From a virus: a stretch of 64,000 bases of DNA. The DNA lies in the IMG/VR virus record IMGVR_UViG_3300046648_000213, positions 19,210-83,209 of that record; one strand, written 5' to 3'. Below, in pieces: positions 2,849 through 63,846 of this stretch. The position numbers and the translations under genes are program-made. A model generated the notes under the pieces. That model searched no databases and was not told the DNA's origin. It worked only from the letters and a program-made list of their open reading frames with translations. Within the stretch, counting starts at the first letter, position 1. Every line of letters begins with the position of its first letter.

Positions 2849-3549
2849 CACGCTTGGTTCATGAATTGAGAGGCGGGGAATCCGCCGTACGGCAGGATCG
2901 CCGTGGCGCCCCATCGGCACTTGCACCCTGTCGGCGTCTTCGGGCACTGGTCCTTCGCCGCGTCGGTCGTCGGCTGATTGTTGATGTCATACATGCTGCC
3001 CGCGTACCCGCAACCTTCCTTACGGTAGGTGAAGGTGCAGACATTCGCGATGACCTTGCGCCCCGGCACCTTGACGCCAGTCACCTCGCTCGCCGGCCCG
3101 AGCTCAAGCTGCACGATCAGGTTGTTGTCCTTCGCCTTGCGGGTCACGAAGTAGATGTCGACCGGGTACTCAGCCGTGGGGTCCGCGTACGGATTCACTC
3201 CGCCTTCGAAGTTCACCGCGTCGAGGTACTTGTACGGAACCCGGTGCCGCGTCACCCGCGCGTTGATGTAATCGTTCAGGCTTTTGATAAGCTGGCCGAT
3301 CACGCCATCGATATTGAACAAGGTGAGCGTCGGCTGCGGCAGCCGGTTCTGGCCATCGAACTCGAAGCCTTCCGCCTGGACAGGGAAGGGCGTGTACGTC
3401 ACGTTCTGCCAAACGACCGGCTGCTTCATCTCGTTCGAGCCGGCGTAAAAGTGGAACACGTCTCCGCCGAACGACGTGCCGTCGAGCTCGAAGAGGACGA
3501 TCTCGGCCGTCGTCTCGAGCTTGCTGTAATAGTCGAGGCTCAGGCTCAT
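2848..3549 (-). CDS. L: Minor tail protein L
   Basis: Lambda gpL-like tail-tip protein, 233 residues. The C-terminal third contains four conserved-looking cysteines (CTFTYRKEGCGY, DQCPKTPTGCKCRWG); in lambda the equivalent cysteines hold an iron-sulphur cluster. The N-terminal domain carries FELDGTSFGGDVFHFYAG, typical of the family. The ATG overlaps the stop of M by four bases, so the two are translationally coupled. Order M-L-K-I-J is exactly that of lambda. Confidence 0.9.
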   Translation of the reverse strand: MSLSLDYYSKLETTAEIVLFELDGTSFGGDVFHFYAGSNEMKQPVVWQNVTYTPFPVQAEGFEFDGQNRLPQPTLTLFNIDGVIGQLIKSLNDYINARVTRHRVPYKYLDAVNFEGGVNPYADPTAEYPVDIYFVTRKAKDNNLIVQLELGPASEVTGVKVPGRKVIANVCTFTYRKEGCGYAGSMYDINNQPTTDAAKDQCPKTPTGCKCRWGATAILPYGGFPASQFMNQA

Positions 3550-3887
3550 GGGTTCAAGTCCTCCACGAAGGTGCCGGTGAAGGTGTTGCCGTTGAACTCA
3601 TCGAACGACACCTGCCACTGCTTGCAGGTCCACTTCCGCTGCGTTTTGCGCGGCGGTGTCCAGAGAAAGGAGACTGCCCCCTTTCTCGCTGCGAGCCATT
3701 CGTCGATCGCGTCCGCGTCCGCGTCGCTCAGCACGTTGATGGTGATGGCGTAGGTGAGCGGTGCGTTGTTGATGCCATCGGGCGCGCGCCCGATGTATCC
3801 GTCCCCGAACTTGACTTCCCTGACCGTAGGCTGCCGGGTCAGGTTCGTCGAGTAGGACGGCTTCCACGTGAAGTCGTCAGCTGCCAT
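3546..3887 (-). CDS. M: Minor tail protein M
   Basis: Lambda gpM-like tail-tip protein of 113 residues. The sequence FTWKPSYSTNLTRQPTVREVKFGDGYIGR followed by TYAITINVLSDADADAIDEWL is the characteristic family pattern (shown here in pieces). It starts seven bases downstream of the tape-measure stop and overlaps L. No good ribosome site precedes it, so translation may depend on ribosomes leaving the tape-measure gene. Confidence 0.85.
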   Translation of the reverse strand: MAADDFTWKPSYSTNLTRQPTVREVKFGDGYIGRAPDGINNAPLTYAITINVLSDADADAIDEWLAARKGAVSFLWTPPRKTQRKWTCKQWQVSFDEFNGNTFTGTFVEDLNP

Positions 3888-3893
3888 TTTTTA

Positions 3894-9371: not shown

Positions 9372-9436
9372 ACGGCCCCCTTCTTATTGTTTTTTTAGGC
9401 GTTTTATGTTCCGCATTATCCTTTCCGGAGCATAAA

Positions 9437-9465
9437 AAAACCAGCCCGATTAGGGGCTGGTTTTC
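9437..9465 (-). terminator. Intrinsic terminator or attenuator between GT and the tape measure gene
   Basis: Stem CCAGCCC / GGGCTGG (9441-9447 with 9454-9460), six-base loop, extended by A:T pairs. On the minus strand it is followed by a run of seven T. It overlaps the last codons of T and precedes the tape measure start by about 65 bases. It would lower expression of the large, low-copy tape measure relative to the upstream tail genes. Confidence 0.75.
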
Positions 9466-10174
9466 TTCGAAGCGGTGAACTCCATGTACGCCGCGTCGAG
9501 CCTTCGCACCACGCGGAGCAGACGGAGCCGTTCATCGGCCGTGTAGTCCCCGAGCAACTGAACGTAGGCAAGCACTTCTGAGCAGGGTATCGGCCCGATC
9601 GTCATGCCTATTTGTCGGCTTGGATTCAGGTCGTAAAACGCCTCCAGAAAGTGCCTGTTCTGCTGCTGCAGGGTCGGCCGATCAACGAGCGCCTTCGGCT
9701 TGATACCGCTCACCTCGTAGACCTCGAGCAGGGTCGGGTACTGGTCCCCCCACTCGAGCTCCCAAAGCAAGCAGTCGATCAGTTTTTTTCGGCTTCGGCC
9801 TCAGCTTGCGCGCGGAAGTTTTCGAAGTTGTCGGAGTGCTGCGCGACCACGCGGCGGAAGTCCTTGTGATTCAGGACCAGGCGCGCGTTCTCGAGGCTAT
9901 ACGGCAGGGTCTTGCCCTTGTACTTCAGGCCGTCCCAACCCTTCAGCAGCGTCTGCGCCATCACCTCGACCATGATCTCGTCCGACTTCGCGTCAGCGGT
10001 GTCGTCGCCCTTGTCGAGCACGGCCTTGTTCTGCTCGACCAGCTTCGCCAGCAGCTTCGAGTACGCGCGGCTATTCGAGCGCGCGACGCGGATCGACGCG
10101 CCTTGGCCGAGATCGACGCGCGCGCCGTTCTTCTCGAGGTCTTCGTTGGTGGCGAAAGATGCAAAGATGTCCAC
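9450..10174 (-). CDS. GT: Tail assembly chaperone GT made by -1 frameshifting
   Basis: Frameshift product joining G (9779-10174) to T (9450-9782). G ends with GAA AAA AAC TGA, so the classical slippery heptamer A AAA AAC lies at 9788-9782 directly before the stop. A -1 slip there continues as CTG ATC GAC TGC TTG into an open frame that codes for the T part (LLWELEWGDQY...) and ends at 9450. In lambda the GT protein recruits major tail protein to tape measure-bound chaperone and only a few percent of ribosomes shift. Position between major tail protein and tape measure is canonical. The T part has no convincing start of its own. Confidence 0.9.
9779..10174 (-). CDS. G: Tail assembly chaperone G
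   Basis: Unshifted chaperone, 131 residues, starting ATG at 10174. The protein is helical, with a DLEKNGARVDLGQGASIRVARSN segment near the start that is typical of siphophage tail chaperones, and an acidic alanine-rich end (AQAEAEAEKN). It binds the tape measure during tail assembly in the known systems. Its ratio to GT is set by the slippery site at its end. Confidence 0.88.
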   Translation of the reverse strand: MDIFASFATNEDLEKNGARVDLGQGASIRVARSNSRAYSKLLAKLVEQNKAVLDKGDDTADAKSDEIMVEVMAQTLLKGWDGLKYKGKTLPYSLENARLVLNHKDFRRVVAQHSDNFENFRAQAEAEAEKN

Positions 10175-10215
10175 GGTGTTCCTTTGTCGTTGTGGTTATG
10201 AGAACGGGCGGAGTA

Positions 10216-10239
10216 TGTCCCGTACAGCTAAATATGTCA
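10216..10239 (-). promoter_or_regulatory. Promoter carrying the 24-bp motif TGACAT-N12-GGGACA
   Basis: On the minus strand TTGACA (10240-10235) is followed after 17 bases by CATACT (10217-10212), a good sigma70-type promoter directed at G/GT. It contains an exact copy of the bipartite 24-bp motif found at eight other places. It would give the tail chaperone and tape measure genes a start independent of the major tail protein transcript. Confidence 0.65.
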
Positions 10240-10254
10240 ATCAGGGATACAGAA

Positions 10255-10276
10255 AATGCCGGGTTTCCCCGGCATT
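10255..10276 (-). terminator. Hairpin after the major tail protein gene
   Basis: Nine-base-pair stem AATGCCGGG / CCCGGCATT with a four-base loop; the minus-strand continuation is TTTTCTG. It lies 14 bases after the stop of V and before the promoter for G. Likely reduces read-through from the abundant V transcript. Confidence 0.7.
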
Positions 10277-10289
10277 CTCAGTTTGCTGC

Positions 10290-11252
10290 TTAGGACACTG
10301 CGCCGATGCGATCGATGATGATCGTGTGGCCGCTGGTCGGATCGAGCAGCGCCTGGTAGGGCAGGGACACCATCACGTCCTGATCCAGCGCGCCGGCGTT
10401 GATCTTGCCGTCCGAGTACTTCATCTTCGGCAAGGTGAACGTGTAGCCGTTGCCTGCGCCGTCGAGGGCCTTGAACGACAGGCTCGTCGAGGTGTTGTTC
10501 AGGAACTTGTCGTACAGCGCGCCGTCAGCGAAGTACACCTCGAGCGTGCCGGTCACCTTCAGCGTGCCCGACGCGACGCCGGCCGTGCCGAACACGCCGA
10601 CCGCATCCTGCGCGCGCACCGCGTTGTCGAGGTCCAGCTTGAGCGACTTCACGAACGTGTTCGCGAGCGCAACGCCGCCTTCGAGGATCGTGCCGACACC
10701 CTTCACGCAGTTCATCGTGTCGTTGGTGTGCGAAGCCGTCAACGTGCCCGGAAGCGTCGTCGCGGTTGTGCGCACCGAATCCTTGCCGGTGAACTCGAAA
10801 GAGCCAGTCAGGATCGACCCGGACTTCAGGTCGAGCGACATCTTCGAGGCGACCATGCCGCGGTACGCGAATACCTGGTTGACGTCGGAGAACGCCTTCT
10901 CGAGCGTGAACGAGCGCTGCGTCGTGCCATTCACGAGGCGGCCGGACGTCTGCACAGGATTGTTCGTCGTATCCCACGTGCCTTGGAGCGCCGCCTGCAT
11001 GAGCGCGTCGTACTCGAGGAACGAGAGCTCGAAGTTGAAGCCGCCGGATGCGTCGGCGCCAACCTGAATCAGATCGGTGATCTGGCGGTCGGGGCGGATT
11101 TCCTTGCTGCTTTCGGTCTTGAGCTTGAATGCGAGAGACTCGCCCGTGAAGCGCAGCGCGCTGCCGTTGCCGGCGATCGGGGTCTGACCGAAGACCGTTT
11201 CCTGAATGTAGCTCAGCTGTGCGCGTGAGCTCGTGGAAAGCAGATTACTCAT
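10290..11252 (-). CDS. V: Major tail tube protein
   Basis: Building block of the tail tube, 320 residues, starting ATG at 11252 after a GAGGGAG. Position between the tail terminator and G/GT is that of lambda V. The sequence is rich in beta-strand-like alternation and contains phrases common in this family: YIQETVFGQTP near the start, ALRFTGESLAF, LTGSFEFTGKDS, and SLKLDLDNAVRAQDAVG. Sequence family was judged from these and from context, without a database search. Confidence 0.82.
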   Translation of the reverse strand: MSNLLSTSSRAQLSYIQETVFGQTPIAGNGSALRFTGESLAFKLKTESSKEIRPDRQITDLIQVGADASGGFNFELSFLEYDALMQAALQGTWDTTNNPVQTSGRLVNGTTQRSFTLEKAFSDVNQVFAYRGMVASKMSLDLKSGSILTGSFEFTGKDSVRTTATTLPGTLTASHTNDTMNCVKGVGTILEGGVALANTFVKSLKLDLDNAVRAQDAVGVFGTAGVASGTLKVTGTLEVYFADGALYDKFLNNTSTSLSFKALDGAGNGYTFTLPKMKYSDGKINAGALDQDVMVSLPYQALLDPTSGHTIIIDRIGAVS

Positions 11253-11313
11253 GGGGGCTGTCTCCCTCTTATTGTTATCGATGTGCTTCTATTTTGCGCC
11301 GAATCTACTACAT

Positions 11314-11724
11314 TCAGCCTCTGTCGTCAAAGTAAAACCTGAGCATCAGAGGCTGCTTGTACCAACCCGGTCCCGGCACGGGAGACAAGGGTTGTCCCTG
11401 CTGGAACGTGATGCCGCCGAGCATCGCGCCGCGCAGCAGGCGGTCGACGAAAGTCAGCATCTCGTTCCCTTGTTTAGTTCCCGCGCCGACCTTCGTGAAC
11501 GCCTCGCAGTGCAGGTATCCGTGATACCGCCACGTCGGGCTCGCGTTCATGTCGACCTGATGCGAGTCGTGGTACTTGATGAATACGTTCATGAACGGAT
11601 TCGGCTCGGTCGCGAGATCGACGTTGCCGACGTTCTCGAACTGGAGCTTGAACTCCGGGAATTGCGCAGTCCAGGCGGTCTGCAGTGCCGCGGCGATCGC
11701 GCGGCGCGCGTCATCGAATGTCAT
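11314..11724 (-). CDS. U: Tail terminator protein
   Basis: 136-residue protein in the position of lambda U, matching the general look of the tail terminator-like family: N-terminal helix (FDDARRAIAAALQTAW), then beta strands ending LMLRFYFDDRG. Tail terminators form a hexamer that stops tail-tube growth and joins head to tail. Its start is two bases from the stop of the tail completion gene. Confidence 0.75.
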   Translation of the reverse strand: MTFDDARRAIAAALQTAWTAQFPEFKLQFENVGNVDLATEPNPFMNVFIKYHDSHQVDMNASPTWRYHGYLHCEAFTKVGAGTKQGNEMLTFVDRLLRGAMLGGITFQQGQPLSPVPGPGWYKQPLMLRFYFDDRG

Positions 11725-14296: not shown

Positions 14297-15484
14297 TTAC
14301 TGGAGCACCAGCACGTCGAACGCGTCGTCGAACATGCGGTAGGCGACTTCGCCGAAGTCCCAGCGCAGCGCTTCCGACTTGCTCATCACGTACTGCTCGA
14401 CCGCGCTGTACGAAGCCTGCGCGTTGCGCACGCGGCGGATCGCGTAGCGGCTGTCGATGCCCATGATCGTGCCCGTGGGGATCACGCCGTCTTCCAGCAG
14501 GAAGATGTTGACGTTCTGCCACTGCGGGTTCTGAACGTGCGGCAGCGGGTTGATACGCGGCGAGTTCGGATCGTCCTGAACGATCACCGGGCGGCCGGTG
14601 CGGTTCTCGATCGCGAGCGCGGTCTTCAGGTCGCAGAAGACCCAATCGATGTGGCGCTTGCGGAAGTTGCGGCGCAGCCAGCTGACCCACGCGAGTTGCG
14701 TGAGGTTGCCTGCCGTCGTGATCGACGAGTCGAAGTCCGAAGCCTTCGAGGTGGACAGAGCAGCGGAGCCCATGTCGATGTCGCCGTTCAGGAACGACTG
14801 GATGTAGCCGTCGACGAGGTATGCCTGCTGGAATTCAGCCTGGCGGCTCATCGCCATCGCCACGAGGTCGAGCGTCGTCGCCTTCATGGCTTCGAACGAC
14901 ACCTGCAGACCGAGCGAGAACGTCGGAATCTTGCGCGCGACGTCGCTGATCTTGATGCCGATCATCGATGCCGGCTCGGACAGCTGAGCGATCGGCTGCG
15001 CGACCGTGCCGTTCACGTTCGAGTAGTCGAGCAGCGGCTGTTCGAAGCGGTTGCTGTTGATCGAGTCGTCGACCGCGACAAGCTGGTTGAACAGGCCGAC
15101 GTACGACGAGTAGTCGTTGTGCAGCGCGCTGTCGATCGCTTCGAGGAACACGGCCGGGAAGATGATCCGCGAGGCCGGTTGCGCTTCTTGCACGATCACG
15201 CCAGCTTGCTTGCCTTCGAGGGCGTTGAAGTTGAGCTCGGCACCGCCGTTCACGATGTCGTGCATCGTCGGCGGCTTGATGCCGGCCGAGCGATTGGCCT
15301 TGAAGAACAGGCCGCACGATGCCATGAACTGTTCGAAGGCCGTACCATCGCGATCCGCGTTGGTCTGGTACTTCGCGTTCAGGTACTGAGGCACGGTCAT
15401 GTTGCGTGCTTCAGCTTCCTTGTAAATCGTCACGTCCAGCTTGACGTCCTGACGTGCGCCTTGTGCATCGATAAAGACCGGCAT
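14297..15484 (-). CDS. Major capsid protein
   Basis: 395 residues from ATG 15484, with AAGGAG six bases upstream; an in-frame longer reading to 15517 lacks a ribosome site and covers the leader. It is placed after protease/scaffold and decoration genes. Features fitting an HK97-fold shell protein of this group include FEQPLLDYSNVNGTVAQP, an internal SLGLQVSFEAMKATTLDLVAM segment and a C-terminal WDFGEVAYRMFDDAFDVLVLQ. It is flanked by hairpins, consistent with separate high-level expression. Confidence 0.85.
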   Translation of the reverse strand: MPVFIDAQGARQDVKLDVTIYKEAEARNMTVPQYLNAKYQTNADRDGTAFEQFMASCGLFFKANRSAGIKPPTMHDIVNGGAELNFNALEGKQAGVIVQEAQPASRIIFPAVFLEAIDSALHNDYSSYVGLFNQLVAVDDSINSNRFEQPLLDYSNVNGTVAQPIAQLSEPASMIGIKISDVARKIPTFSLGLQVSFEAMKATTLDLVAMAMSRQAEFQQAYLVDGYIQSFLNGDIDMGSAALSTSKASDFDSSITTAGNLTQLAWVSWLRRNFRKRHIDWVFCDLKTALAIENRTGRPVIVQDDPNSPRINPLPHVQNPQWQNVNIFLLEDGVIPTGTIMGIDSRYAIRRVRNAQASYSAVEQYVMSKSEALRWDFGEVAYRMFDDAFDVLVLQ

Positions 15485-16013: not shown

Positions 16014-16595
16014 TTACCCCTTTTTCTGGTTGAAACGAGTGGCCGCGACTGCTGCACGACGCACGTCCGAGGCAACAGCAGGAGCTTCCGCTTCGGCAGG
16101 CTTCGTGACTTCTGCTGCGACGCCGCCGACCTTGAACTTCTCGACGAACTCGCCGCTCAGGCGCTTGTGCTCGCCGACCAGTGCGACGCCGCTCATGGCC
16201 GACAGGTCACGCTTCGAGCCGCCGAGCGCGACGTGCATGTTGTGCACGGCGCCGCGCGCGATCTCTTCGAGAGCGGCATGCGTATCAGCTTGAGCGGTCA
16301 GTTGCGCGCGGGCTGCGGCCAGTTCGACGGCGCCTTCGGCGACCTTCGCGTTCGCAGCCTGGAGTTCGCCGCGCAGGAACGCGACGATTTCCGAGTCGCC
16401 TTGCGTGGCGACTGCGGGAGCAGCGGCGGCGGCGGCAGCGGCGGGCGCGGCGGCGGCAGCGGCTGCTGCGACGGCTGCGGGATCGGGGGTTTCGGTGGTT
16501 GCGGCAGGGGTTTCAGCGACCGCGCCAGCAGCTGCTGCTGCGGCACCGCCCGCGGCGAGCGCCGCGATTTCCTGTTCCGTCAGGGTCTTTTTCAC
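16014..16595 (-). CDS. Nested scaffold protein (lambda Nu3-like)
   Basis: In-frame internal gene within the protease gene, 193 residues, from GTG at 16595. AAGGAGG lies at the right distance upstream of this codon, in a stretch coding for NNKEGH where codon choice is odd for the protein (AAT AAT AAG GAG). The product begins KKTLTEQEIAALAAGG and contains the alanine-rich linker and coiled coil. Separate scaffold from an internal start is well known in lambda-like phages; here it is an inference from the ribosome site. Confidence 0.7.
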   Translation of the reverse strand: MKKTLTEQEIAALAAGGAAAAAAGAVAETPAATTETPDPAAVAAAAAAAAPAAAAAAAAPAVATQGDSEIVAFLRGELQAANAKVAEGAVELAAARAQLTAQADTHAALEEIARGAVHNMHVALGGSKRDLSAMSGVALVGEHKRLSGEFVEKFKVGGVAAEVTKPAEAEAPAVASDVRRAAVAATRFNQKKG

Positions 16596-17486
16596 ATGCC
16601 CCTCCTTATTATTATGGGCCGAATTGTTGAACTGAAAGGGAGAATTGTCAACGCCTTTTTGCTGCATTTGCGCAAGAACTTCGTCGAAAGTAGCGACTCC
16701 ATCGACAAGTCCTACTCCAACTGCGGCCTCGCCGACAAATTCTCGCCCCTGAGCCATCGTGCTGTCCGCTTTCGCGTACGTCACGCCGCGCGCGTCGGCG
16801 ACGTGCTGCACGAAGACGCTGTACACCGCGTCGAGGCCGGCCTGCCACTGCGTGCGCGCCTCGTCGGTGAATGCTTCCATCGGATGCCCGAGCGCCTTGT
16901 ACTTGCCGGCGCGCATCACCGTCGCCTTGACGCCCATCTGCTCCATCATGCCGGTGCGCTCGGTGTGCACGTTGATGACGCCGACCGAGCCGACGTCCGC
17001 CGTGTCGCTCGCGTAGATTTTGCTGGCCGAGCTTCCGAGCCAGTACGCCGCCGACGCCATCACGCCGTCCGCGTACGCGATGATCGGCTTGTGCTTGCCG
17101 ACCATCTGGATGAGCTTCGCCGTATCGCTCACGCCCGACACTGCGCCGCCGCCCGAGCTCACGTCGAGCAGGATCGACTTGATGCTCGAGTCCTTCGCGG
17201 CTTCCACCAGCGCGGAGCGAATCTCCGGATAGCCCGTCGTGCCCATGTACGAGTTCATCCAGCTACGGTCGCTGTTCGTGAGCGGGCCGCGGATCGAGAT
17301 CACGCCGACGCTGCCTTGCTTCGAGAGCAGGCGGCTGCTCGGGTCTTCGTCGTCGTAGCTGTAGCCGAGCTTCTCGGCAAGTTGCACCTGCTCGGCCGCG
17401 CTCATGCGCGCGACGCGCTCGTATGCTTCCTGCACGGCGATCAGCGCCGCCTCGCGGCCTGCCCAATGCTGTTCGTCAAAAATCAT
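16014..17486 (-). CDS. C: S49-family head maturation protease with C-terminal scaffold
   Basis: 490-residue ClpP-like protease fused to scaffold. The S49 domain has the serine in GVMASAAYW and a downstream lysine in RAGKYKALG, the serine-lysine dyad expected of the family. About residues 285-360 are a low-complexity alanine/proline/threonine linker, followed by a helical coiled-coil scaffold region ending FNQKKG. As in lambda C/Nu3, the second half has its own start (next entry). It processes portal and scaffold during prohead maturation in known relatives. Confidence 0.9.
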   Translation of the reverse strand: MIFDEQHWAGREAALIAVQEAYERVARMSAAEQVQLAEKLGYSYDDEDPSSRLLSKQGSVGVISIRGPLTNSDRSWMNSYMGTTGYPEIRSALVEAAKDSSIKSILLDVSSGGGAVSGVSDTAKLIQMVGKHKPIIAYADGVMASAAYWLGSSASKIYASDTADVGSVGVINVHTERTGMMEQMGVKATVMRAGKYKALGHPMEAFTDEARTQWQAGLDAVYSVFVQHVADARGVTYAKADSTMAQGREFVGEAAVGVGLVDGVATFDEVLAQMQQKGVDNSPFQFNNSAHNNKEGHVKKTLTEQEIAALAAGGAAAAAAGAVAETPAATTETPDPAAVAAAAAAAAPAAAAAAAAPAVATQGDSEIVAFLRGELQAANAKVAEGAVELAAARAQLTAQADTHAALEEIARGAVHNMHVALGGSKRDLSAMSGVALVGEHKRLSGEFVEKFKVGGVAAEVTKPAEAEAPAVASDVRRAAVAATRFNQKKG

Positions 17487-17495
17487 GGTGTCTCC

Positions 17496-19193
17496 TCACT
17501 TATTTTTCGGGTCGTTCTTCGGCGATCCCTTCGGCGCCTGCGGAGCCTTCGATTTGCCGCTCGAGTTGTTCGTCTGCTCCTGAACACCGCCATTGGCAGC
17601 CGACCCGTTGTACGGGTTGCCGCCGCCCGGTGCGTCCATGCCGCCCTGCGCCATCGTCTGCGAGCGGAATCCGGTGCCCGACAGCGGCTTCATGCCTGAC
17701 GGCGGCAGCGCGCCGGTGAGCTCGATCGACGCTTCCTCGTCGGTCAGCATGCCGAGACTCAGGAGCTCGAGCACGCGCGACTGCTTCATCGAGCGGAAGG
17801 ACTCGAGCTCGAGCTTCGGCCGCAGGTCGATCGACGCGAACTTGAACTCGACATAGACGTCCTGGCCGAACAGGCGCACGGCCAGCGTCAGGATGCGCGA
17901 CAGGATCGCGTTGACCTTGTTCTGCACGGCCATCGCGTTCTTCATGAACATCATCGTCTCGGACGATGCGATGTTCTGCGAGCCCTGTCCGTGTCCAAGA
18001 ATCGAGGGCAAGGTCTTCGCGCCGGTCGCCATCTTCGCGTCGAAGATGTCGTTGAGCACCTTCCACTCGGCGTCGAGGTTGGTGTTGCCGCCGGTGAGGT
18101 AGTCGATCTCGACCGTATCGAAGCCGACGATCGCGTCCTCGGGGTTCAGGCCGTTCACCATGTCCTCGATCTGCGACACAGTGTCGGAGACGTACTGCTT
18201 GAACTTGTCCTGATCGTGGAGGATGTCCGGCGGCACCGACAGCTTGAACTTCTCCTGATCGATCGACGCGTGCAGGCGCGGGTGAATCGCGCGCTTGATG
18301 ACGCGCCACAAGTCGTTCTGGAATTCGCTCGAGGCAAGCACCGACTGGACAGCGGATTCGATGGGGCTCGAGGGGTAGGGCTGCGTCAGGTCCTGATCCA
18401 GCGACTCGTAGAAGAACGTCGGGATGTTCAGGTCGATCCGCTGGCCGACGATGTACTGCTGCGGCTGCAGCGATACGTTGTCCGGCTCCTGAATGAACTT
18501 CAACTCGGGCACGTTCAGCGGCACGATGTTCGCCGGCAGGCGCGTCTTGTCGAGCACGAGCTCGGCGGAGCACGCGCCATACAGCACGACTTCCTTAGCA
18601 AGCTGCTCGGAAATCGCCATGATCGAATTCGTGTTCGAGAATCCGGCGCTGTAGTCGGGAACGTAGTTGAAGCGCGCGAGAATCTGCGCGAGAAGGCCCA
18701 TCGCTTCGGTGTTGACCGTCCCATCGGCGCGGTTGCGCACGACGGCCGTCCATTCGTCGGTGATCGCCGTGTGGATCATCGCGAAGACAGCAGCAGACAA
18801 GTCCGGCGATGCCGCCGCGAGGTCGCGAATGACCTGCCAAGTGGCGACGCCGCCCCGGAACGTGGTGATGTCGGTCTGATAGAGCCGACGATCGGTCTGA
18901 GGGAGCCAGTTTCCAGTCGGTTTGGCCGTGCGGACATAGGACGGCAGCGACGTTTGACCGGGCTTCGCCTTCAGCGGCTTCTGCTGAGTGAATCCCGCCT
19001 CATTCGTAACGCTCCCGCCCGTGCTCCCGCCCGGTTTAGCTGCCGCCTTCCGTTCGGCCCGCCCTTCGCGTGTGGAAGCACCGCTTCCAATGAGGGCTTT
19101 AACTGGCACCGGCGCGCGTTCTGCGTCTACTTCGGTGCCTCGGCCGAACAGGGACGACAACCTGGCCTTTATTTTTGTTGTTATTTCGGCCAT
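17496..19193 (-). CDS. B: Portal protein
   Basis: 565-residue portal, the dodecameric channel at one head vertex through which DNA is packaged. ATG at 19193 with GGGGAG five bases upstream. After a basic low-complexity N-terminus (about 1-85) the core carries AVFAMIHTAITDEWTAVVRN, GACSAELVLDKTRLP and the helical wing/stem region LDAEWKVLNDIFDAKMATGAK; the C-terminus from about 500 is Gly/Asn/Lys-rich. Position between large terminase and protease supports the call. Confidence 0.88.
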   Translation of the reverse strand: MAEITTKIKARLSSLFGRGTEVDAERAPVPVKALIGSGASTREGRAERKAAAKPGGSTGGSVTNEAGFTQQKPLKAKPGQTSLPSYVRTAKPTGNWLPQTDRRLYQTDITTFRGGVATWQVIRDLAAASPDLSAAVFAMIHTAITDEWTAVVRNRADGTVNTEAMGLLAQILARFNYVPDYSAGFSNTNSIMAISEQLAKEVVLYGACSAELVLDKTRLPANIVPLNVPELKFIQEPDNVSLQPQQYIVGQRIDLNIPTFFYESLDQDLTQPYPSSPIESAVQSVLASSEFQNDLWRVIKRAIHPRLHASIDQEKFKLSVPPDILHDQDKFKQYVSDTVSQIEDMVNGLNPEDAIVGFDTVEIDYLTGGNTNLDAEWKVLNDIFDAKMATGAKTLPSILGHGQGSQNIASSETMMFMKNAMAVQNKVNAILSRILTLAVRLFGQDVYVEFKFASIDLRPKLELESFRSMKQSRVLELLSLGMLTDEEASIELTGALPPSGMKPLSGTGFRSQTMAQGGMDAPGGGNPYNGSAANGGVQEQTNNSSGKSKAPQAPKGSPKNDPKNK

Positions 19194-19251: not shown

Positions 19252-20949
19252 CTAGGTATTTTTGCCTTCAAACGGCGATTTATGGGCGGATTTTACTCGG
19301 AACTTGTGCAAACTGACCGGAATTATTGCGCCGTTCTGTGATACACCCCGCAGACGCGCTGCGGCGTAGCAATACTGGAGGGCATGGTGGAAGTGGTCGA
19401 TGCCCTTGGCCGACTTCTTCCAGACGAACGCCATCTCGTTGTCGGACGTGAATTCCTTGATGCGCTTCATGTCCATGCAGTGCTTCATGAGCTCTTCTTT
19501 GTTCTCGTCCTCGAAGAACGTGATGCTGCCGCCCCGGATGAAGTCCATCAGGCTGTCGAACGCCTTGTTCCGGTTGATGTTGACCTGCCGGACCGCCTCT
19601 TTACCCGCGTCTTCGTCCTTCTCCTGCGCGCGCAGCTTGAAGATTTCGATGTCTTTCGTGTTCGTGTAGATGCCGCCGTACAGGTTGACGAACCAACCCT
19701 GCAGGCGCATGAGCAGGTCGGTGTACGGGTACGAGTCCATCACCGCCATCGCGACGCGATACTCGGCGCAGAACTGCTTGAACTTCTCCTCGAACTGGCC
19801 GAGCGGCACGCGCGCGGTCTTCACGACGGTCATGCGCCCGGTGTAGTCGACGCCGGCGATCACGAAGTGGCAGGTCATGCCCATGTCGACGCCCATCACG
19901 GTCGTTCCGAATGCCGGCGGCTCGCCGCGCACATAGCAGCGCTCGAAGTCATCGAGCGTGAGGCTCGTCTCCTTGTCCTCAGCGGGCAGCCCGAGGTTGA
20001 AGTTGATGAAGTCGACGTAGCGGTCGTAGCTGGTGCTCGCCTGGATCAGGAAGGGCAAGCTGATGATGTTCGGCGCGTCGAACGGCGTGATCTGGAAGCC
20101 GGCAGCGATGTGCTTGCTCTCGCTGTTCATGATGACCCACTCGCGGTGCGCGGGCAGCAGCGACGGTTCCTTGCCGCACTTCGGGCACTCGAGCCACGCC
20201 TCGCTGAAGCGCAGGCGGCCGATCGTCTCCTTCGTGATCGCGCGCATGTCGTCGAAGAAGTCGGGGATGCGCACGTGCTGGAAGTAGTCCGGCACGAAGT
20301 AGTGGTTGCAGTGGCAGCACTTCACCATGTTCCACTTCTGGCGGCTCGACTCAAAGTGTTCGGAGATGCCCCAACCCTCGACGGTCGGCGTCGACCACTT
20401 GAACTTGAACTTGTACTTCGAGTGCGTCAGGCGCGACTGGTAGTTGGACATCACCTCGCTGTCGGAGAAGTCCACCTCATCGTTGAAGATCGCGTCGGCC
20501 GGCACCGAGATCGCGGCGCTGGCGCCCTTCGTGCCCTTCACGTAGAGGAAGCTGTTGTTGAAGCGCTTGACCTCGCTGTTGTCGGTCGACGTGTGCAGGT
20601 TCGCCTTCATGATGGGCGACTCGTCGATCACCGTGTCGACCCGCGTCTTCGTGAACGTGCGCGCGAAGCCGGCGGTGGGCAGCGTGTAGATCGTCGTGAA
20701 GCCGGGGATCATGTTGCACAGGGCAAGTGCGTAGCGCGCGGCGAGCTCGGAGATTCCGATCTGCGAGCACTTGCGCACGACCTTCTCCGGCGATGGGTCG
20801 CGCAGCACCGCTTCCTGATACTCGTGGTCGAGGAAGCTGTAGTTGCCGCCGCGGATCATCGTGTTGACGGTGAGCCATTCCGGGATTTTCTCGAGGCCCC
20901 ACGAGTTCAGTAGAACTGTGCGCAGCCGCTCCATGTGAAGGTCGAACAT
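19252..20949 (-). CDS. A: Terminase large subunit (GpA type)
   Basis: DNA packaging motor, 565 residues. ATPase features: a degenerate Walker A at 60-68 (KCSQIGISE, as in GpA-type terminases) and Walker B FNDEVD at 155-160. A four-cysteine zinc-ribbon-like insert lies at about 211-259 (CCHC ... CPKC). The nuclease half has GVDMGMT and a later VMDSYPYTD acidic pair. Start ATG 20949 with AAGGA eight bases upstream. It cuts and threads concatemers into proheads with the small subunit. Confidence 0.92.
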   Translation of the reverse strand: MFDLHMERLRTVLLNSWGLEKIPEWLTVNTMIRGGNYSFLDHEYQEAVLRDPSPEKVVRKCSQIGISELAARYALALCNMIPGFTTIYTLPTAGFARTFTKTRVDTVIDESPIMKANLHTSTDNSEVKRFNNSFLYVKGTKGASAAISVPADAIFNDEVDFSDSEVMSNYQSRLTHSKYKFKFKWSTPTVEGWGISEHFESSRQKWNMVKCCHCNHYFVPDYFQHVRIPDFFDDMRAITKETIGRLRFSEAWLECPKCGKEPSLLPAHREWVIMNSESKHIAAGFQITPFDAPNIISLPFLIQASTSYDRYVDFINFNLGLPAEDKETSLTLDDFERCYVRGEPPAFGTTVMGVDMGMTCHFVIAGVDYTGRMTVVKTARVPLGQFEEKFKQFCAEYRVAMAVMDSYPYTDLLMRLQGWFVNLYGGIYTNTKDIEIFKLRAQEKDEDAGKEAVRQVNINRNKAFDSLMDFIRGGSITFFEDENKEELMKHCMDMKRIKEFTSDNEMAFVWKKSAKGIDHFHHALQYCYAAARLRGVSQNGAIIPVSLHKFRVKSAHKSPFEGKNT

Positions 20950-22156: not shown

Positions 22157-22500
22157 TGCCGTCCGCTCCCATCGCACACGCGGCAGGCGCTGTTTGCGTA
22201 AAGCGGAAGGCCGTCGACGAGGGCTTGGCGCTCGAAACGTGTGCCGCCGCACGCAGCGCAGGCCACAAATGGCTTGCCAGCTTCGTCTGCTGCTTGATCG
22301 ATGACATGTTTGGCGCTGATTGCGGCCAATACACCTTTCAGAGAGCGCTCAGCGGCATGGCGAGAGACTCTTTTGGCGTGAATTTGGTGCGGAGAAGCCT
22401 GGACACTGCCAATGTCGCCCACGATTGGGGCAACACTGTCCATTGAAGGGTCGAAGTCAGGCTCGAGGAGCGCCTCGTGACCGTGGAAGTTGTCTTCCAT
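22150..22500 (-). CDS. Four-cysteine zinc protein, possible Q-like late regulator
   Basis: 116 residues. The C-terminal half contains CAACGGTRF (about 82-90) and, 21 residues later, CRVCDGSG (about 106-113), a DnaJ-like zinc-binding pattern also found in lambdoid Q antiterminators. It is the second gene at the head of the late operon, exactly where a late-transcription activator would sit. I infer a Q-like role but see no qut-like site. Overlaps the upstream HTH gene by 44 bases. Confidence 0.5.
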   Translation of the reverse strand: MEDNFHGHEALLEPDFDPSMDSVAPIVGDIGSVQASPHQIHAKRVSRHAAERSLKGVLAAISAKHVIDQAADEAGKPFVACAACGGTRFERQALVDGLPLYANSACRVCDGSGRQC

Positions 22501-22876
22501 CTTGTTCTTGTCCCAATGTCTTGACCATCCGATAGACCTGTCGAGTGGAAACCTCCAACTCTTCGGCAGCTTTCTCTATGGTCATGGTGCCTTTCAGCAC
22601 TCTAATTATTGTTTGGCGCTGAACTTGACGCTTTTGGGCGACCCTCTCTCGGTCTAGGACCTTCTGAGATGGAGCTCTCGTCAAATTTCTAGCCTTCATC
22701 AACCTGCTCAAATGCCGCTCAGTGACACCAAGCATTCTAGCCGCTTCTGTGCGGCTTATCTGCTTGGTCGAATAGGCTTCCAGTACCGAGTCCCGTTGTT
22801 TTTCTTCTTCTGCCGAGAGTGCCCCGATTGCTGAGCCTTGCGGCTTTTTAGTCATGGCCCGGATTGTGGACGACAT
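22457..22876 (-). CDS. Double helix-turn-helix regulator
   Basis: 139 residues from ATG 22876; a start at 22855 is equally possible because neither has a clear ribosome site. Two HTH units are visible: ISRTEAARMLGVTERHLSRL (about 47-66) and IEKAAEELEVSTRQVYRMV (about 107-125). The linker is very basic. It faces the 680-bp regulatory region and the five-site TGTCCATTG array, and a copy of the 24-bp motif lies 15 bases upstream. It is the best local candidate for a protein binding these sites, but that is inference. Confidence 0.65.
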   Translation of the reverse strand: MSSTIRAMTKKPQGSAIGALSAEEEKQRDSVLEAYSTKQISRTEAARMLGVTERHLSRLMKARNLTRAPSQKVLDRERVAQKRQVQRQTIIRVLKGTMTIEKAAEELEVSTRQVYRMVKTLGQEQDGRQLPRSRGAPRA

Positions 22877-22890
22877 GGCAGGAATGGGCA

Positions 22891-22914
22891 AGTCCCTTTT
22901 TTCCGAGAATGTCA
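22891..22914 (-). promoter_or_regulatory. 24-bp motif copy upstream of the HTH gene
   Basis: Minus-strand TTGACAT, 12 bases, GGGACT (one mismatch to the consensus). TTGACA serves as a plausible -35 for the HTH gene at 22876; no matching -10 follows at 17 bases, so it may be an operator rather than a complete promoter. Confidence 0.5.
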
Positions 22915-23046
22915 AAAAGTTCTGGAAAATGTCGGAAATTTCGTAGGGGAGAGGGACCCGGCGCGTCGGCGCAATGGACAGGGAAAGCCACCCCGTCAAA
23001 GCCCCTAAACGGTCTTTGGCGCGCGCCGTGCGATGGAAAGCGTCAT

Positions 23047-23268
23047 TGTCCATTGTCCCAATGATTCTAACGACTCAGACGGCGCACACGGCGCACACAA
23101 TGGACACTGACAGCACATAGGACAGTGGATAGGACATAGGCACTGGCAGTGTCCATTGTCTAGGCACTGGCACTGGCACTGGCACTGGCACTGGCAGCTG
23201 TCACTGCAATGGACACTGGCACTGGCACCGATCGTTAGCACTGGCATAGGCACTGGCACTGTCCATTG
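23047..23268. repeat. Five TGTCCATTG sites in alternating orientation
   Basis: TGTCCATTG occurs at 23047, 23150 and 23260 on the plus strand and at 23098-23106 and 23207-23215 on the minus strand, with centres 51, 52, 57 and 53 bp apart, close to five helical turns. Between them are tandem GGCACT hexamers (23163-23195 and others). The 9-mer contains the half-site of the TGTCCA-NN-TGGACA palindrome. Confidence 0.8.
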
Positions 23269-26459: not shown

Positions 26460-26670
26460 TCACTCAGATTTTTGCTCTCTCGACCTTGGCGAACCCCCAA
26501 GGGGGTACTTTTCGGCAAGTCATTAAACAGTTGCTGTAAGTCCTTGATTTACAATGGACATTTCAACCGTGTGGCGTAACTCACACAGTCAAGTCGAAAA
26601 CCATTGACTTTTGAAAACCACCTCAAAATCGTCGCTTTCCTCAATACAATCAACCACTTACGTCGAAAAA

Positions 26671-26857
26671 TCGATGCATGGGTGTTGTAAATCGATGCAT
26701 GGGTGTTGTAGCTCGATGCATGGGTGTTGTGGGGTCGATGCATGGGTGTTGTGACCTCGATGCATGGGTGTTGTGGGTCGATGCATGGGTGTTAGGCCCC
26801 TCGATGCATGGGTGTTTGCCTATTTTTTGTGCAAAAACGGCTCGATGCGTGGGTGTT
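26671..26857 (+). repeat. Second iteron array, TCGATGCATGGGTGTT
   Basis: Eight direct repeats starting at 26671, 26692, 26713, 26735, 26757, 26778, 26801 and 26842 (the last with one change). Starts are 21-23 bp apart, the last at 41 (about two units). The first five copies also share the following GT. Period of two helical turns and direct orientation are typical of initiator-binding iterons. The sequence differs from the array at trfA. Confidence 0.85.
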
Positions 26858-26899
26858 GCGCGTGTTCTTTTGCACACGACGTTTTCTGTCTGAAATAGA

Positions 26900-26994: not shown

Positions 26995-27240
26995 ATGACT
27001 GACAATGCTTCGATGAGCCCGATCGAGCGCGCCGTGAACATCATCGGCGGCCCGAGCGAAACGGCACGCAAGATGACCCTCGCCACCGGCAAGCTGTTCT
27101 CGCCGAGCGTGGTTTGGCATTGGGTAGCGAAAGATCACGTGCGCGTGGAATTCCTGACGGCGCTGTCCAGGCTGAGCGGCATTCCGGTGCTCGAGTTCGT
27201 TGACCACCTCGCCTACACGAGCGAGAAGGCGACCGTATGA
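26995..27240 (+). CDS. YdaS/Cro-like DNA-binding regulator
   Basis: 81 residues from ATG 26995 with GGAG eight bases upstream. The opening SPIERAVNIIGGPSETARKM, then SPSVVWHWVAKDHVRVEFLT, gives an HTH of the YdaS antitoxin / Cro family, in which the first helix block reads A-x-x-IIGG-x-x-x-x-A. Such proteins repress phage lytic or toxin promoters. Located between the second iteron array and the next gene, whose ATG overlaps its TGA. It could regulate either. Family is fairly sure, target is not. Confidence 0.75.
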   Translation: MTDNASMSPIERAVNIIGGPSETARKMTLATGKLFSPSVVWHWVAKDHVRVEFLTALSRLSGIPVLEFVDHLAYTSEKATV

Positions 27241-37817: not shown

Positions 37818-38162
37818 GTGTCCCGCTATACCGAACTGAAAGAACAGCACGAAAAGCTCACCCTCGAACTGCAGGCCGCATTCGAGGAAGAGAAGAAGCA
37901 GGCGATCGACGAGATCAAGGCCATGATCGACACGTACAGCATCACGGCTTATGACCTCGAGATCGAGGTGAAGGCGAAGAAGCTGCCGCCTGGAAAGAAG
38001 ACGCACAGCACGTTCGCCGTGAAGAAGCCGCGCATCACTGTGCCGCCGCTGTACCGCGATCCGGAAAGCGGCAAGACGTGGAGCGGGCGCGGTCGAGAGC
38101 CGCTCTGGTTGGAAGGTAAGCGGGACGAGTTCCTCATCAAGCAGCAAGAGCAGCCAGCGTAA
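37818..38162 (+). CDS. H-NS-like nucleoid protein
   Basis: 114 residues from GTG 37818 (AAGGAA at seven bases; the GTG six bases earlier is too close). N-terminal coiled coil (ELKEQHEKLTLELQAAFEEE), then an H-NS family C-terminal DNA-binding domain: YRDPESGKTWSGRGREPLWL. H-NS proteins bind AT-rich minor groove and silence transcription. A phage copy may silence its own AT-rich regions in the plasmid state or counter host H-NS. Confidence 0.9.
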   Translation: MSRYTELKEQHEKLTLELQAAFEEEKKQAIDEIKAMIDTYSITAYDLEIEVKAKKLPPGKKTHSTFAVKKPRITVPPLYRDPESGKTWSGRGREPLWLEGKRDEFLIKQQEQPA

Positions 38163-57979: not shown

Positions 57980-58332
57980 TGCCGATGCCAGAAACATTCG
58001 ATCCGATCCCGGAGAACGCCGCCGACTTCCGAACGGCGTTCATCACGCGGCACGGGTATGAGCCGAACCTGCAGGACAGCTTCGAGGCCGGAATGCTTGT
58101 CGGCATCCTCCGGTCCGAATGGACCTTCGAGACAAGAATCAGCGGCGAGCGCGGGCTGCGCCAGATATGGGAAGAGCGGGCTCACGAATGGTGCGACAAG
58201 TACTTCGCGCTGCTGCGAAAAATGACAGAGGAACGAAATGCTAAAAGAACTGAACACGACGAACTTCCGCAAGCTGACGAACAACACGATCACGTACACG
58301 CCGGGGCTGAACGCGATCCGCGCGCCGAATGA
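57979..58332 (+). CDS. Hypothetical protein overlapping the Rad50-like gene
   Basis: 117 residues. MPMPETFDPIPENAADFRTA, RHGYEPNLQDSFEAGMLVGI. Starts on the last base of the SbcD-like stop. The last 95 bases overlap the next gene in another frame and encode a charged tail, so probably only the first 86 residues are functional. No family recognised. Confidence 0.6.
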   Translation: MPMPETFDPIPENAADFRTAFITRHGYEPNLQDSFEAGMLVGILRSEWTFETRISGERGLRQIWEERAHEWCDKYFALLRKMTEERNAKRTEHDELPQADEQHDHVHAGAERDPRAE

Positions 58333-60379
58333 AGGCGGCAAGACGACGAGCCTCGAGGCGTGGGCGTACCTCTTCTTCGGCGTGAAGGCATGCCGCAACT
58401 CGCTCGAGGAGGTCGTCACGTGGGGCCAGAAGGTCGGCACGCTGAAGGTCGAAGGGCGCTTTGAAGTCGCGGGCGTCGAGTACTACGCGAAGCGTTCGAA
58501 GTCGGGCGCTGAGATCAACTACGTGGACGCCGCTGGCGCCGAGCAGAACGTCACCGGCCAGAGCGAGTGCACGGCGTTCATCGAGCGCCTTATCGGCGTC
58601 ACGAGCAAGAATGTCTCGCGCCTGCTGTTCGCAAGCCAGAACGAAATCCGCGGCGCGCTCGAGGAGGGCGCACCGGCGACGATGGCGCTGATCGAAAAGC
58701 TGGCTGACTTCGAGCAGATCGACAACGTGCTCACGCTGATCCAGTCGAACCTCGTCACCGGCAACACGGCGACCGCCGAGTCGAACGTGGCGCGCGCGAC
58801 CGAGCAGATCGAGGCGCTCGGCCCGGTCGTCGCGCCGGATTTGAAGGCGGACCTTGCCCACCTCCAGACGTTGACCGACGCGGCGACCGCCGCTGGCGAC
58901 GCGATCGCAAAGCACGAGGAAGCGCTCGAGATCGCGCGCGCCGGATTCACGATGGTGAAGACGGCGGCCGACACTGCGACGCGCCTGAGCCAGCAGCAGA
59001 ACAAGCTGATGAAGAAGATCGAGGACGATCGCGAAGCGGCAGCTGCCGCGCGCGCCGTCGCTGGCACCGCGCCGCTGCAGGAAGAGATCGACGGCGTGCG
59101 CGAGCAGATCGCGTTCGCGGCCGATGTCGAGCGCAAGCTGAAGGTGTGGAATCGCTTCGTCGCGCTCTCCGAGAGCTACCCGGAAGCGTATTGGGACGAG
59201 GGGCGCGAGGCGCTCGCTGCGGAGATCACGAAGACCCGCAACGAGATCACCGCGCTCGACGGACAGAGCAACGAGGCGCATTCGAACATCCGAGTCGCGC
59301 AGGCGACGCTCATCAAGGAAACGGCGTGCGGGCTGTGCGGCAAGGACTTGTCGGCCGTGCCGGAAGTCGTCGAGAAGAACGCCAAGCAGGAAAAGATCAT
59401 CGCCGACGCGCGCGCCGTCATCGCAGCGAACGGAGCGAAGATCGCCGACCTGCGCCAAGACCTGAAGGACCTGCTCGATGTGCAGGAGGCGGGCACCGTC
59501 TACACGAACTTCGCCGACTCGAACGAGGAACTGGTCGCTGCCGACCACCAGTTCGTGCCGGCGAAGCTGTCGTGGAAGGCAGAGCAGATTCCGACCGTCG
59601 TCGACGCGGCCGAGCTCCGCGCGAAGCTGACGAAGCTGGAGACGGCGACGCGCATGGCGGCGGCGTCCGCCGGCCGCGTGCAGGAGCTCGAGCGCAGCAT
59701 CGCGGCGGCGACCGCCGAGCTCGATAGCGTCAGCGCCGCGATGCTCACCGCGAACGCGCAGGCTGCCGGACTTGAGGACGCGCAGCGCGCGCTGCAGACG
59801 GCGCTCGATGCGGTGAACGATGCGCGCGGCGCGCACCAGCGCGCGCAGCAGGCGTTCTTCGCGGCAAAGGGCGACATCGACGTCAAGCGCCTCTCGTACG
59901 AGACAGCGAAGGCCACGCGCGCCCGCCTGGACACCGACCTGAAGGAGGCCAAGGAGCAGCTTGCCCAACTCGCCTTCAACAACGCGCTGCTCAAGCGCGT
60001 GCGTCAGGCCCGCCCGATCATCGCCGACAAGTTGTGGGGCATCGTGTTGACCGCCGTGTCGCTCTACTTCTCGACGATGCGCGGCGCGCAGTCGAGCGTG
60101 ACGAAGGACGCGGACGGCTTCAAGGTCGACGGCCACGCGGTCGAGTCGCTCTCCGGCTCGACACTGGACATCCTCGGCCTCGCGATCCGGCTTGCGCTCA
60201 CCCGCACGTTCCTGCCCAACGCGCCGTTCATGATCCTCGACGAGCCGTCCAGCGGCTGCGATGACGATCGCACGGCGGCGATGACCGGCTTCCTCGTGAG
60301 CGCCGGCTTCCCGCAGATTCTGCTCGTGACGCACAAGAGCATGGACGAGGCGGCTGCTGCGAACCTCGTGCTGATCTGA
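58238..60379 (+). CDS. Rad50/SbcC-like ATPase
   Basis: 713 residues. Walker A RAPNEGGKTT near 28-37, long coiled coils, a zinc-hook CGLCG near 365, and the C-terminal signature ESLSGSTLDILGLAIRLALT with Walker B FMILDEPSSG near 675. Coiled-coil arms are short compared with cellular SbcC, as in T4 gp46. With the SbcD-like subunit it processes DNA ends. Confidence 0.92.
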   Translation: MLKELNTTNFRKLTNNTITYTPGLNAIRAPNEGGKTTSLEAWAYLFFGVKACRNSLEEVVTWGQKVGTLKVEGRFEVAGVEYYAKRSKSGAEINYVDAAGAEQNVTGQSECTAFIERLIGVTSKNVSRLLFASQNEIRGALEEGAPATMALIEKLADFEQIDNVLTLIQSNLVTGNTATAESNVARATEQIEALGPVVAPDLKADLAHLQTLTDAATAAGDAIAKHEEALEIARAGFTMVKTAADTATRLSQQQNKLMKKIEDDREAAAAARAVAGTAPLQEEIDGVREQIAFAADVERKLKVWNRFVALSESYPEAYWDEGREALAAEITKTRNEITALDGQSNEAHSNIRVAQATLIKETACGLCGKDLSAVPEVVEKNAKQEKIIADARAVIAANGAKIADLRQDLKDLLDVQEAGTVYTNFADSNEELVAADHQFVPAKLSWKAEQIPTVVDAAELRAKLTKLETATRMAAASAGRVQELERSIAAATAELDSVSAAMLTANAQAAGLEDAQRALQTALDAVNDARGAHQRAQQAFFAAKGDIDVKRLSYETAKATRARLDTDLKEAKEQLAQLAFNNALLKRVRQARPIIADKLWGIVLTAVSLYFSTMRGAQSSVTKDADGFKVDGHAVESLSGSTLDILGLAIRLALTRTFLPNAPFMILDEPSSGCDDDRTAAMTGFLVSAGFPQILLVTHKSMDEAAAANLVLI

Positions 60380-62466: not shown

Positions 62467-62715
62467 TTAGTAGTTGCTGTCGAGCCAAGCCTTCGCCCAC
62501 GTGATCGCGCGGTCGTTGGCCGCCGTCTCCGTGTCGAAATAGCCGATATCGAAGAAGTGGAAAATCTCGCCCTCGTCTTCGTCTTCCCACGGGCCGCGCT
62601 CGACTTCAACCCAAGCGTGCCAGAGGAAATTTTTGCACTCGGGAAACGACCTGATCGTCCATTCGCGATGCTCTACTTTTGCTGACGGCTGCTTCAAGGT
62701 GCCCTCCGGAGTCAC
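62467..62715 (-). CDS. Small hypothetical protein downstream of trfA
   Basis: 82 residues from GTG 62715, overlapping the stop of trfA (GTGA). MTPEGTLKQPSAKVEHREWT, aromatic and acidic (GPWEDEDEGEIFHFFDIGYF). Coupling suggests co-expression with the initiator; a copy-control role is possible but not shown. Confidence 0.6.
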   Translation of the reverse strand: MTPEGTLKQPSAKVEHREWTIRSFPECKNFLWHAWVEVERGPWEDEDEGEIFHFFDIGYFDTETAANDRAITWAKAWLDSNY

Positions 62716-63548
62716 GCGGCCTCAATGACCTTGGCGTCGCGCTTCTTCTTTACGGTGACGAGGTAGGAAGGGCGCGGCCCGATGGTGTAGCTGTCCAGGA
62801 ATTCAGGCACGAGCTCATCGAGCGCGTCCTTCAGCTTGGCACGGAAAAGGCGGGGGTTCTTCTGCTTGCTCCCGCAGAGCCCGAGCAACGTCTCTGCCTT
62901 GTACGGCAGAGGAACCTTGTGGGTCGAGTAGAAAGCGTGCAGCCACTTGGCGAGGCCGGACAGCTTGAAGTGTCGTGCCCAATCGAGCAGCGTCATCTCG
63001 TCGCCGGTGAGAATGTTGGCAAGGCTAGGGTCGAGGACGATCGTGAACTCTCCTCTTACGTCGTCGTCGTGGTGGCCCTCCTCCAGCAACTTGCTGATGA
63101 GGTGGGAACCATACACCTTTCGGCGCTTCTGTCCGGTGATCTCGACGTACACGGTGCCCTCCAGCAGCCGGCGGTATGACGCTCGCAGTCGTTCGTAGGA
63201 GAGGCACGATCGGTCCCATCCAAGCCCGTTGATAGCGTTCAGCCCCGTGACCTTGACGACCTCTCCGAACGGCGACGTGCGCGCATGGTGGCACAGCTGC
63301 ATGAAGACGAGGTGGTCGTCCTGATCCAACTGCTTGCCGGTATAGCGAATCTCGACATCCTGCAGAGACTGGACGACCTCGTTCTCCAAGTTTCTGCGGG
63401 GCTTTCGCTTGTCGAGCACCGCGAACAGCGCGCTGTTCACGAGGCTCTTCGACATACCGCGAACCCTGTCATCCCACAGAGAAAGCTGCTTCGGGCGATT
63501 AGTGAACTCCGCTTCAAGCTGGCGCGCGCGATCGAGGGCGGTCTTCAT
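62712..63548 (-). CDS. trfA: Plasmid replication initiator, TrfA family
   Basis: 278 residues. Strong resemblance to TrfA of IncP plasmids: VNSALFAVLDKRKPRRNLEN, EIRYTGKQLDQDDHLVFMQL, LGWDRSCLSYERLRASYRRL and WLHAFYSTHKVPLPYKAETL fall in the order of the TrfA winged-helix domains. It would bind the iterons just upstream (63594-63740) and open an origin, giving autonomous plasmid replication. ATG 63548 has no strong ribosome site, which is common for limiting initiators. QLSLWDD near the N-terminus fits the beta-clamp-binding motif of initiators (Q-L-S-L-W). Confidence 0.9.
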   Translation of the reverse strand: MKTALDRARQLEAEFTNRPKQLSLWDDRVRGMSKSLVNSALFAVLDKRKPRRNLENEVVQSLQDVEIRYTGKQLDQDDHLVFMQLCHHARTSPFGEVVKVTGLNAINGLGWDRSCLSYERLRASYRRLLEGTVYVEITGQKRRKVYGSHLISKLLEEGHHDDDVRGEFTIVLDPSLANILTGDEMTLLDWARHFKLSGLAKWLHAFYSTHKVPLPYKAETLLGLCGSKQKNPRLFRAKLKDALDELVPEFLDSYTIGPRPSYLVTVKKKRDAKVIEAA

Positions 63549-63593
63549 GATGTGGGCAAGGTGTCGAGTAACGTCAATCGTAGCAAAAAGGGA

Positions 63594-63740
63594 TTCGTGG
63601 ATTGAGGAACATTATTCGTGGATCGAGGAACACTTTTCGTGGATTGAGGAACGGTCCGTTCGTGGATTGAGGAACACTTTTCGTGGATCGAGGAACGCTT
63701 TTTCGTGGATCGAGGAACGCTTTTTCGTGGATCGAGGAAC
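63594..63740 (+). repeat. oriV: Iteron array upstream of trfA
   Basis: Seven direct 17-bp repeats TTCGTGGAT(T/C)GAGGAAC at 63594, 63615, 63636, 63659, 63680, 63702 and 63724, that is 21-23 bp apart. Spacing and length match RK2-type iterons, and TTGAGG recalls the core of the RK2 iteron. Followed by about 90 bases of AT-rich DNA (63741-63830) that could be the melting region. Probable plasmid origin and copy-control locus. Confidence 0.9.
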
Positions 63741-63846
63741 ATCTGATGATTTGAATATCGCTGAAAATCAGCCGCTTAACGCTGAAATTCACAGGAAATA
63801 AGCAGTTTATAAGCATTCTCTTTATTAAAACCGTCCCCTGCCCCAC

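Follow-up and report, generated by a model that had tools for sequence, protein, structure and literature searches.

The element analyzed here is very probably a phage-plasmid, namely a Lana/SHOU24-like siphophage that has gained a TrfA iteron replicon together with a ParA-type partition pair and that would be carried as a low-copy plasmid prophage. This identity had been proposed in an earlier note on the same DNA and is now well supported, because the genome encodes a TrfA initiator accompanied by its own iterons, with ParA and its small partner close by, and has no recognizable tyrosine integrase, and because it is otherwise syntenic with Lana. The window that we analyzed comprises bases 19210-83209, the final 64 kb, of an 83,209-bp IMG/VR record. 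Coordinates refer to this window unless stated otherwise, and the first 19 kb of the contig, which lie outside it, make up locus L004. Our analysis directly established the identity of the gene and its iterons, the predicted fold of the initiator, the kinship of the iterons with those of Burkholderia plasmids, the location of the replicon in a phage genome and the lack of a tyrosine integrase. Phage-plasmids and TrfA replicons are each already known separately; what is new is the phage lineage in which they meet, where in its genome the cassette sits and how many viral contigs were counted as carrying TrfA.

A siphophage genome related to Lana and SHOU24

PHROGs and Pfam recognized the full complement of head, tail and replication genes that had been described for this DNA. 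On the minus strand, PHROGs assigned the terminase large subunit (phrog_675, 19252-20949), the portal (17496-19193), the head maturation protease (16014-17486), the major head protein (14297-15484) and the tape measure (3894-9371), a set that identifies the element as a phage. A tail-tip J protein was assigned by PHROGs as well, and a DNA polymerase, a primase and a helicase are all encoded by the phage itself. Identity of the terminase to its counterparts in Lana, PMBT3, SHOU24 and Vibrio phages of 77-88 kb is 28-32%. Synteny analysis matched 19 genes in Lana and 15 in SHOU24 with their order kept, and the succession of terminase, portal, protease, capsid, primase, helicase, DNA polymerase and SbcC is shared with Lana, PMBT3 and SHOU24 at 20-37% identity. 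Genome size is also similar among these phages, the 83.2-kb length of the contig being in line with relatives of 78-88 kb. Judged by these comparisons, in which the packaging, head, tail and replication genes are homologous and lie in the same order, the phage is a Lana/SHOU24-like siphophage. Its earlier description as lambda-like holds for the tail-tip proteins only, whereas the head and replication genes follow Lana.

The host can be approached indirectly. Because the TrfA is nearest to a Burkholderia protein, a small gene beside trfA has homologues in Caballeronia plasmids and a relative of the terminase occurs in Variovorax, the evidence points to Burkholderiales. The Variovorax contig was the only terminase relative among isolate genomes, and TrfA was not found in the genome of that relative.

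Searches with TrfA and ParA gave no match in Lana or SHOU24. Likewise, TrfA was found in none of 41 terminase-related records, twelve of which are at least 74 kb long, and a repeat search of a subset of these records again found none while detecting two positive controls. A ParA-type match over the cut-off was present in 0 of 19 terminase-related records. Because none of the 41 records carries it, TrfA looks new to the Lana/SHOU24-like lineage.

The TrfA initiator and its iterons

TrfA is a textbook initiator of broad-host-range plasmids. The trfA-like gene of the phage (62712-63548, minus strand) encodes a replication initiator of 278 aa, and its proposed membership in the TrfA family was confirmed by a match to PF07042 with an E-value of 1.1e-25 and 90.7 bits, against a cut-off of 22, over positions 38-263 of the 282-position profile. 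The clamp-binding-like QLSLW motif, also noticed earlier, occupies residues 21-25 of the ORF, and a Q-L-x-L/I/F-W motif is found at the same place in most TrfA relatives. Clamp binding by the phage protein is predicted; in TrfA of RK2, the clamp-binding motif is required for binding to the beta clamp (PMC4980987). IncP-1 RK2/RP4 shares the TrfA family with the phage, but its motif reads QLSLF rather than QLSLW and its TrfA is 26-28% identical to the phage protein. Plasmid records matching TrfA numbered 614 in all; the nearest plasmid TrfA is that of Burkholderia glumae, at 50% identity, and no known plasmid TrfA exceeds this value. The nearest TrfA proteins from viral contigs are 57-58% identical, with L028 at 58%.

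Since a PDB sequence search with TrfA gave no significant match, we ran a fold search. AlphaFold2, used with 21 TrfA relatives from viral contigs, modeled the phage protein at a mean pLDDT of 91.8. In the PDB, Foldseek matched it to RctB domains 2-3 (E = 3.5e-9), to the RepE54-iteron complex (1rep, E = 3.4e-6) and to an entry named TrfA with double-stranded DNA (9a0w, E = 1.7e-3). The predicted fold is the WH1-WH2 winged-helix pair of iteron initiators.

Directly downstream of trfA, and overlapping it by 4 bp, lies an 82-aa ORF (62467-62715, minus strand) that appears to be a conserved companion of the initiator. Its homologues in the viral contigs L032, L033 and L034 are 73-92% identical and also lie just downstream of trfA, whereas the TrfA proteins of the same contigs are merely 34-40% identical; homologues in Caballeronia plasmids are 56-73% identical. 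This contrast suggests either recent exchange of the 82-aa gene or strong constraint on its product. Elsewhere in the window, a protein with an H-NS C-terminal domain is encoded at 37818-38162 (E = 1e-9), and homologues of it occur near trfA in L005, L028, L029 and L032.

The seven 17-bp iterons that had been reported could be verified as exact copies of TTCGTGGATYGAGGAAC, which form an oriV array (63594-63740, plus strand) directly upstream of trfA and 46 bp from its start. The copies begin at 63594, 63615, 63636, 63659, 63680, 63702 and 63724, with spacings of 21, 21, 23, 21, 22 and 22 bp (period 21-23 bp). TTCGTGGATYGAGGAAC is absent elsewhere in the window; shuffled sequences are expected to contain 0.25 copies, and none of 100 shuffles reached seven. 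Read in the sense of trfA, the iteron is GTTCCTCRATCCACGAA, and we compared it with the iterons that precede trfA in two plasmids of B. glumae, GTATCTCAAACCCCGAA and GTCGCTCAAACCACGAA. The phage iteron is identical to these at 13/17 and 14/17 positions, a level that was reached in 0 of 5000 shuffles. Because of this match to iterons of trfA plasmids, the phage initiator and its iterons look like one working set. The B. glumae plasmids (NZ_CP100190.1, NZ_CP100267.1 and NZ_CP033671.1) encode TrfA proteins 39.5-50% identical to that of the phage and, like the phage, carry iterons of the same family upstream of trfA, there with 21-24-bp spacing, and ParA-type genes next door. They differ from it in having more iterons in another arrangement and a par partner that is ParG-like or ParB, and no phage gene was present in the stretches read.

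The relationship to IncP plasmids is far more distant. The RK2 iteron has been given as TGACA(G/C)(A/T)TGAGGGGC, with guanines 2, 13 and 14 possibly critical (PMC9499019). The phage iteron agrees with it at 7/15 bases, which is chance level (P = 0.48), and carries A and A at positions 13 and 14, so that the two iterons are not recognizably alike. Since the phage iterons match those of B. glumae, match RK2 at chance level and lack G13 and G14, the replicon belongs, on sequence comparison, to a Burkholderia-type branch of TrfA replicons, and incompatibility with IncP plasmids would not be expected. We therefore rejected this consequence, which the earlier note had drawn, on the basis of TrfA identity and the iteron comparison.

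An AT-rich stretch adjoining the iterons (63740-63840), with 33-42% GC compared with 62% for the genome, is a candidate DNA unwinding element. DnaA boxes with fewer than two mismatches were not found in the stretch checked beside the iterons. By analogy with the family, TrfA monomers would bind the seven iterons and melt the adjoining AT-rich stretch, and QLSLW would then recruit the beta clamp and replisome of the host for theta replication in the dormant state. Copy number would be limited by excess TrfA and by pairing of iterons, and ParA with its small partner would segregate the plasmid copies. During lytic growth, the genome would instead be replicated by the DNA polymerase, primase and helicase of the phage itself.

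A second iteron-like array is located at 26670-26858 and consists of eight copies of (C)TCGATGCATGGGTGTTG with spacings of 21, 21, 22, 22, 21, 23 and 41. It lies beside AT-rich DNA, a short distance upstream of a small ORF (26995-27240) that weakly matches YdaS, and is unrelated to the TrfA iterons. Searches of relatives and of other viral contigs found no array of this repeat, and the array is a candidate lytic origin or regulatory array.

Lifestyle and position of the replicon

P1 is a phage that is kept through an iteron replicon, with RepA iterons, and ParAB partition. Unlike the present phage, it has an initiator of another Rep family, a contractile tail, a known repressor and an addiction module. 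In the contig studied here, the first genes of L004 encode an ATP-dependent DNA ligase, a protein resembling ParA (phrog_164, E = 2e-33) and its 107-aa partner, and the endolysin and tail genes come next; the ligase, ParA, its partner and the endolysin all lie outside the window, in the opening 4.7 kb of the contig. The 107-aa partner had no Pfam match. Its homologues neighbor ParA and trfA in other contigs and, by eye, look like ribbon-helix-helix proteins. A possible remnant of a LAGLIDADG endonuclease (L004 2676-3071) is situated between the par partner and the lysis region.

No match to the tyrosine integrase profile PF00589 was found in the contig. A search for a lysogeny repressor returned nothing convincing, the candidates being a weak YdaS-like match (E = 0.044) and a double helix-turn-helix protein. 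Upstream of the terminase, a 198-aa protein with two helix-turn-helix segments (22457-23053) may be a regulator or the small terminase.

The main rival to a plasmid prophage is a strictly virulent phage in which TrfA and the iterons would serve only to initiate lytic theta replication and ParA would aid the lytic cycle. Its close relative PMBT3 has been described as virulent (PMC8421299), and Lana has been grown only lytically, with lysogeny unmentioned in its paper (PMC7368026). Together with the lack of both a clear repressor and an integrase, and with a polymerase, primase and helicase of the phage's own, this gives the virulent reading some weight. However, ParA has no obvious lytic use, the relatives replicate without TrfA, and the array at 26670-26858, near the divergence of late and early genes, is a better candidate for a lytic origin. 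Moreover, the pairing of TrfA with ParA also occurs on circular plasmids, including a 74-kb phage-like plasmid of an isolate that is described below. We consider strict virulence improbable on this balance.

The genome also contains 23 copies (with at most two mismatches) of a palindrome, TGTCCAATTGGACA, compared with a mean of 0.1 in shuffles. The copies span 24548-49719 of the window, for example at 24548, 28135, 36672, 38173 and 43588, and many of them sit 25-55 bp upstream of early-gene starts. In 18 aligned copies, TGTCC/GGACA is invariant and three outer pairs covary, with 19 double changes that were reached in 0 of 500 shuffles. The palindrome may form an RNA hairpin in 5' leaders, or it may be a symmetric operator. 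We dropped it as a set of repressor operators, and as evidence for lysogeny, because the covariation of the outer pairs fits an RNA hairpin equally.

Comparison with Lana shows where the cassette lies. In Lana, the tail genes lead to the endolysin and spanin and then to SbcC within about 1 kb, and this lysis/SbcC point is the site that is occupied here by the contig ends together with trfA, the iterons, the ligase, parA and its partner. On one side, trfA is continuous with a dCMP deaminase gene and with the SbcC-like gene (58238-60379, plus strand), a phage landmark by synteny with Lana; on the other, par is continuous with the endolysin and tail genes. If the contig ends join, some 2 kb would separate the iterons from parA. 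A small ORF cut off by the contig end (63847-63999, plus strand) stays open to 79 aa if read into the contig start, which is consistent with a circular join but is no proof of it; homologues of this ORF were found neither in plasmids nor in phages or the loci.

The same position raises a second alternative, that of a plasmid with a resident prophage or of a chimeric assembly in which a plasmid replicon and a phage were joined near the contig end, since trfA is less than 1.5 kb and par less than 2.7 kb from opposite ends of the contig and the 83.2-kb sequence has neither end repeats nor an end overlap. We judge this very improbable because the module has phage genes on either side of it. In addition, no conjugation gene was seen, the total size equals that of the relatives, and the small ORF is open across the proposed join. 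Hardly credible is a third possibility, in which the TrfA-iteron unit would mainly counter resident Burkholderiales TrfA plasmids by iteron titration or displacement rather than replicate: the iterons do resemble those of Burkholderia plasmids, but a full initiator with a conserved motif and a partition pair exceeds the needs of titration, and no known plasmid TrfA is more than 50% identical. Returning to the phage-plasmid, we infer that the element replicates autonomously, is partitioned, is circular and forms lysogens.

TrfA in other viral contigs and plasmids

A profile scan of IMG/VR detected TrfA in 25 contigs, 24 of them new. A ParA or partner homologue was encoded in the trfA locus of 17 of the 24 new contigs, and iteron-like arrays of at least four units flanked trfA in 11 of the 18 contigs scanned, compared with at most two units in shuffles. 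Four records with a terminase are plainly phage. Other TrfA contigs encode tail fibers, portal or tail assembly genes, and one has an endolysin together with a tail protein that has lysin activity. On the 31-kb contig from which L005 was taken, TrfA is accompanied by DNA polymerase A and by a virion-like protein of very large size. Several TrfA contigs are therefore clearly phage, and the rest are of uncertain phage status. Three queries of the INPHARED phages gave no real match to TrfA, and the phage iteron motif had three single matches, and no array, in other viral contigs.

Among 31 TrfA proteins placed in a tree, those from viruses and those from plasmids were interleaved, and well supported branches force at least five changes of label. 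Because of this interleaving, the tree suggests that TrfA has been exchanged repeatedly between phages and plasmids; some of the viral contigs may themselves be plasmids. We hold it about evenly balanced whether a broader account applies, in which a lineage known from isolates such as Lana, PMBT3 and SHOU24, all free of plasmid genes, was turned temperate when a single rep-par cassette inserted between the lysis and SbcC genes, and in which TrfA-par cassettes move repeatedly among plasmids and unrelated phage types as an unrecognized broad class in Burkholderiales and their neighbors. The presence of TrfA, iterons and ParA in this phage and in unrelated phage contigs points to a path along which entire maintenance kits pass between phages and plasmids, and in this way phages of a lineage that has been described as virulent may acquire dormancy. 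This bears on whether such phages should be called virulent or temperate and supplies a defined case for tests of incompatibility between phages and plasmids.

The open-access papers that we searched yielded no report of a phage-plasmid with TrfA, and an earlier listing elsewhere is possible. The Bcep22-like phage JC1 was considered as a precedent and rejected, as it is not a TrfA case; it has been reported as likely not a phagemid (PMC9144972). A counterpart in a cultured strain, found in PLSDB, is a complete circular 74-kb plasmid of Chromobacterium phragmitis (NZ_CP029555.1), which encodes a ParA-like ATPase, TrfA, an N4-gp56 major capsid protein and a terminase and which, by annotation, is a TrfA phage-plasmid. 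It shares with the present phage the kit of ParA-like ATPase, small partner, TrfA and phage genes, with circularity seen in the Chromobacterium plasmid only. It differs in belonging to another phage type, with the N4-gp56 capsid and a PLxRFG giant protein, in a TrfA that is 33-35% identical, and in additionally having a tyrosine recombinase and a toxin-antitoxin pair. The capsid-region genes of this plasmid are duplicated (2880-11670 and 62142-70939), several of them with identical protein accessions.
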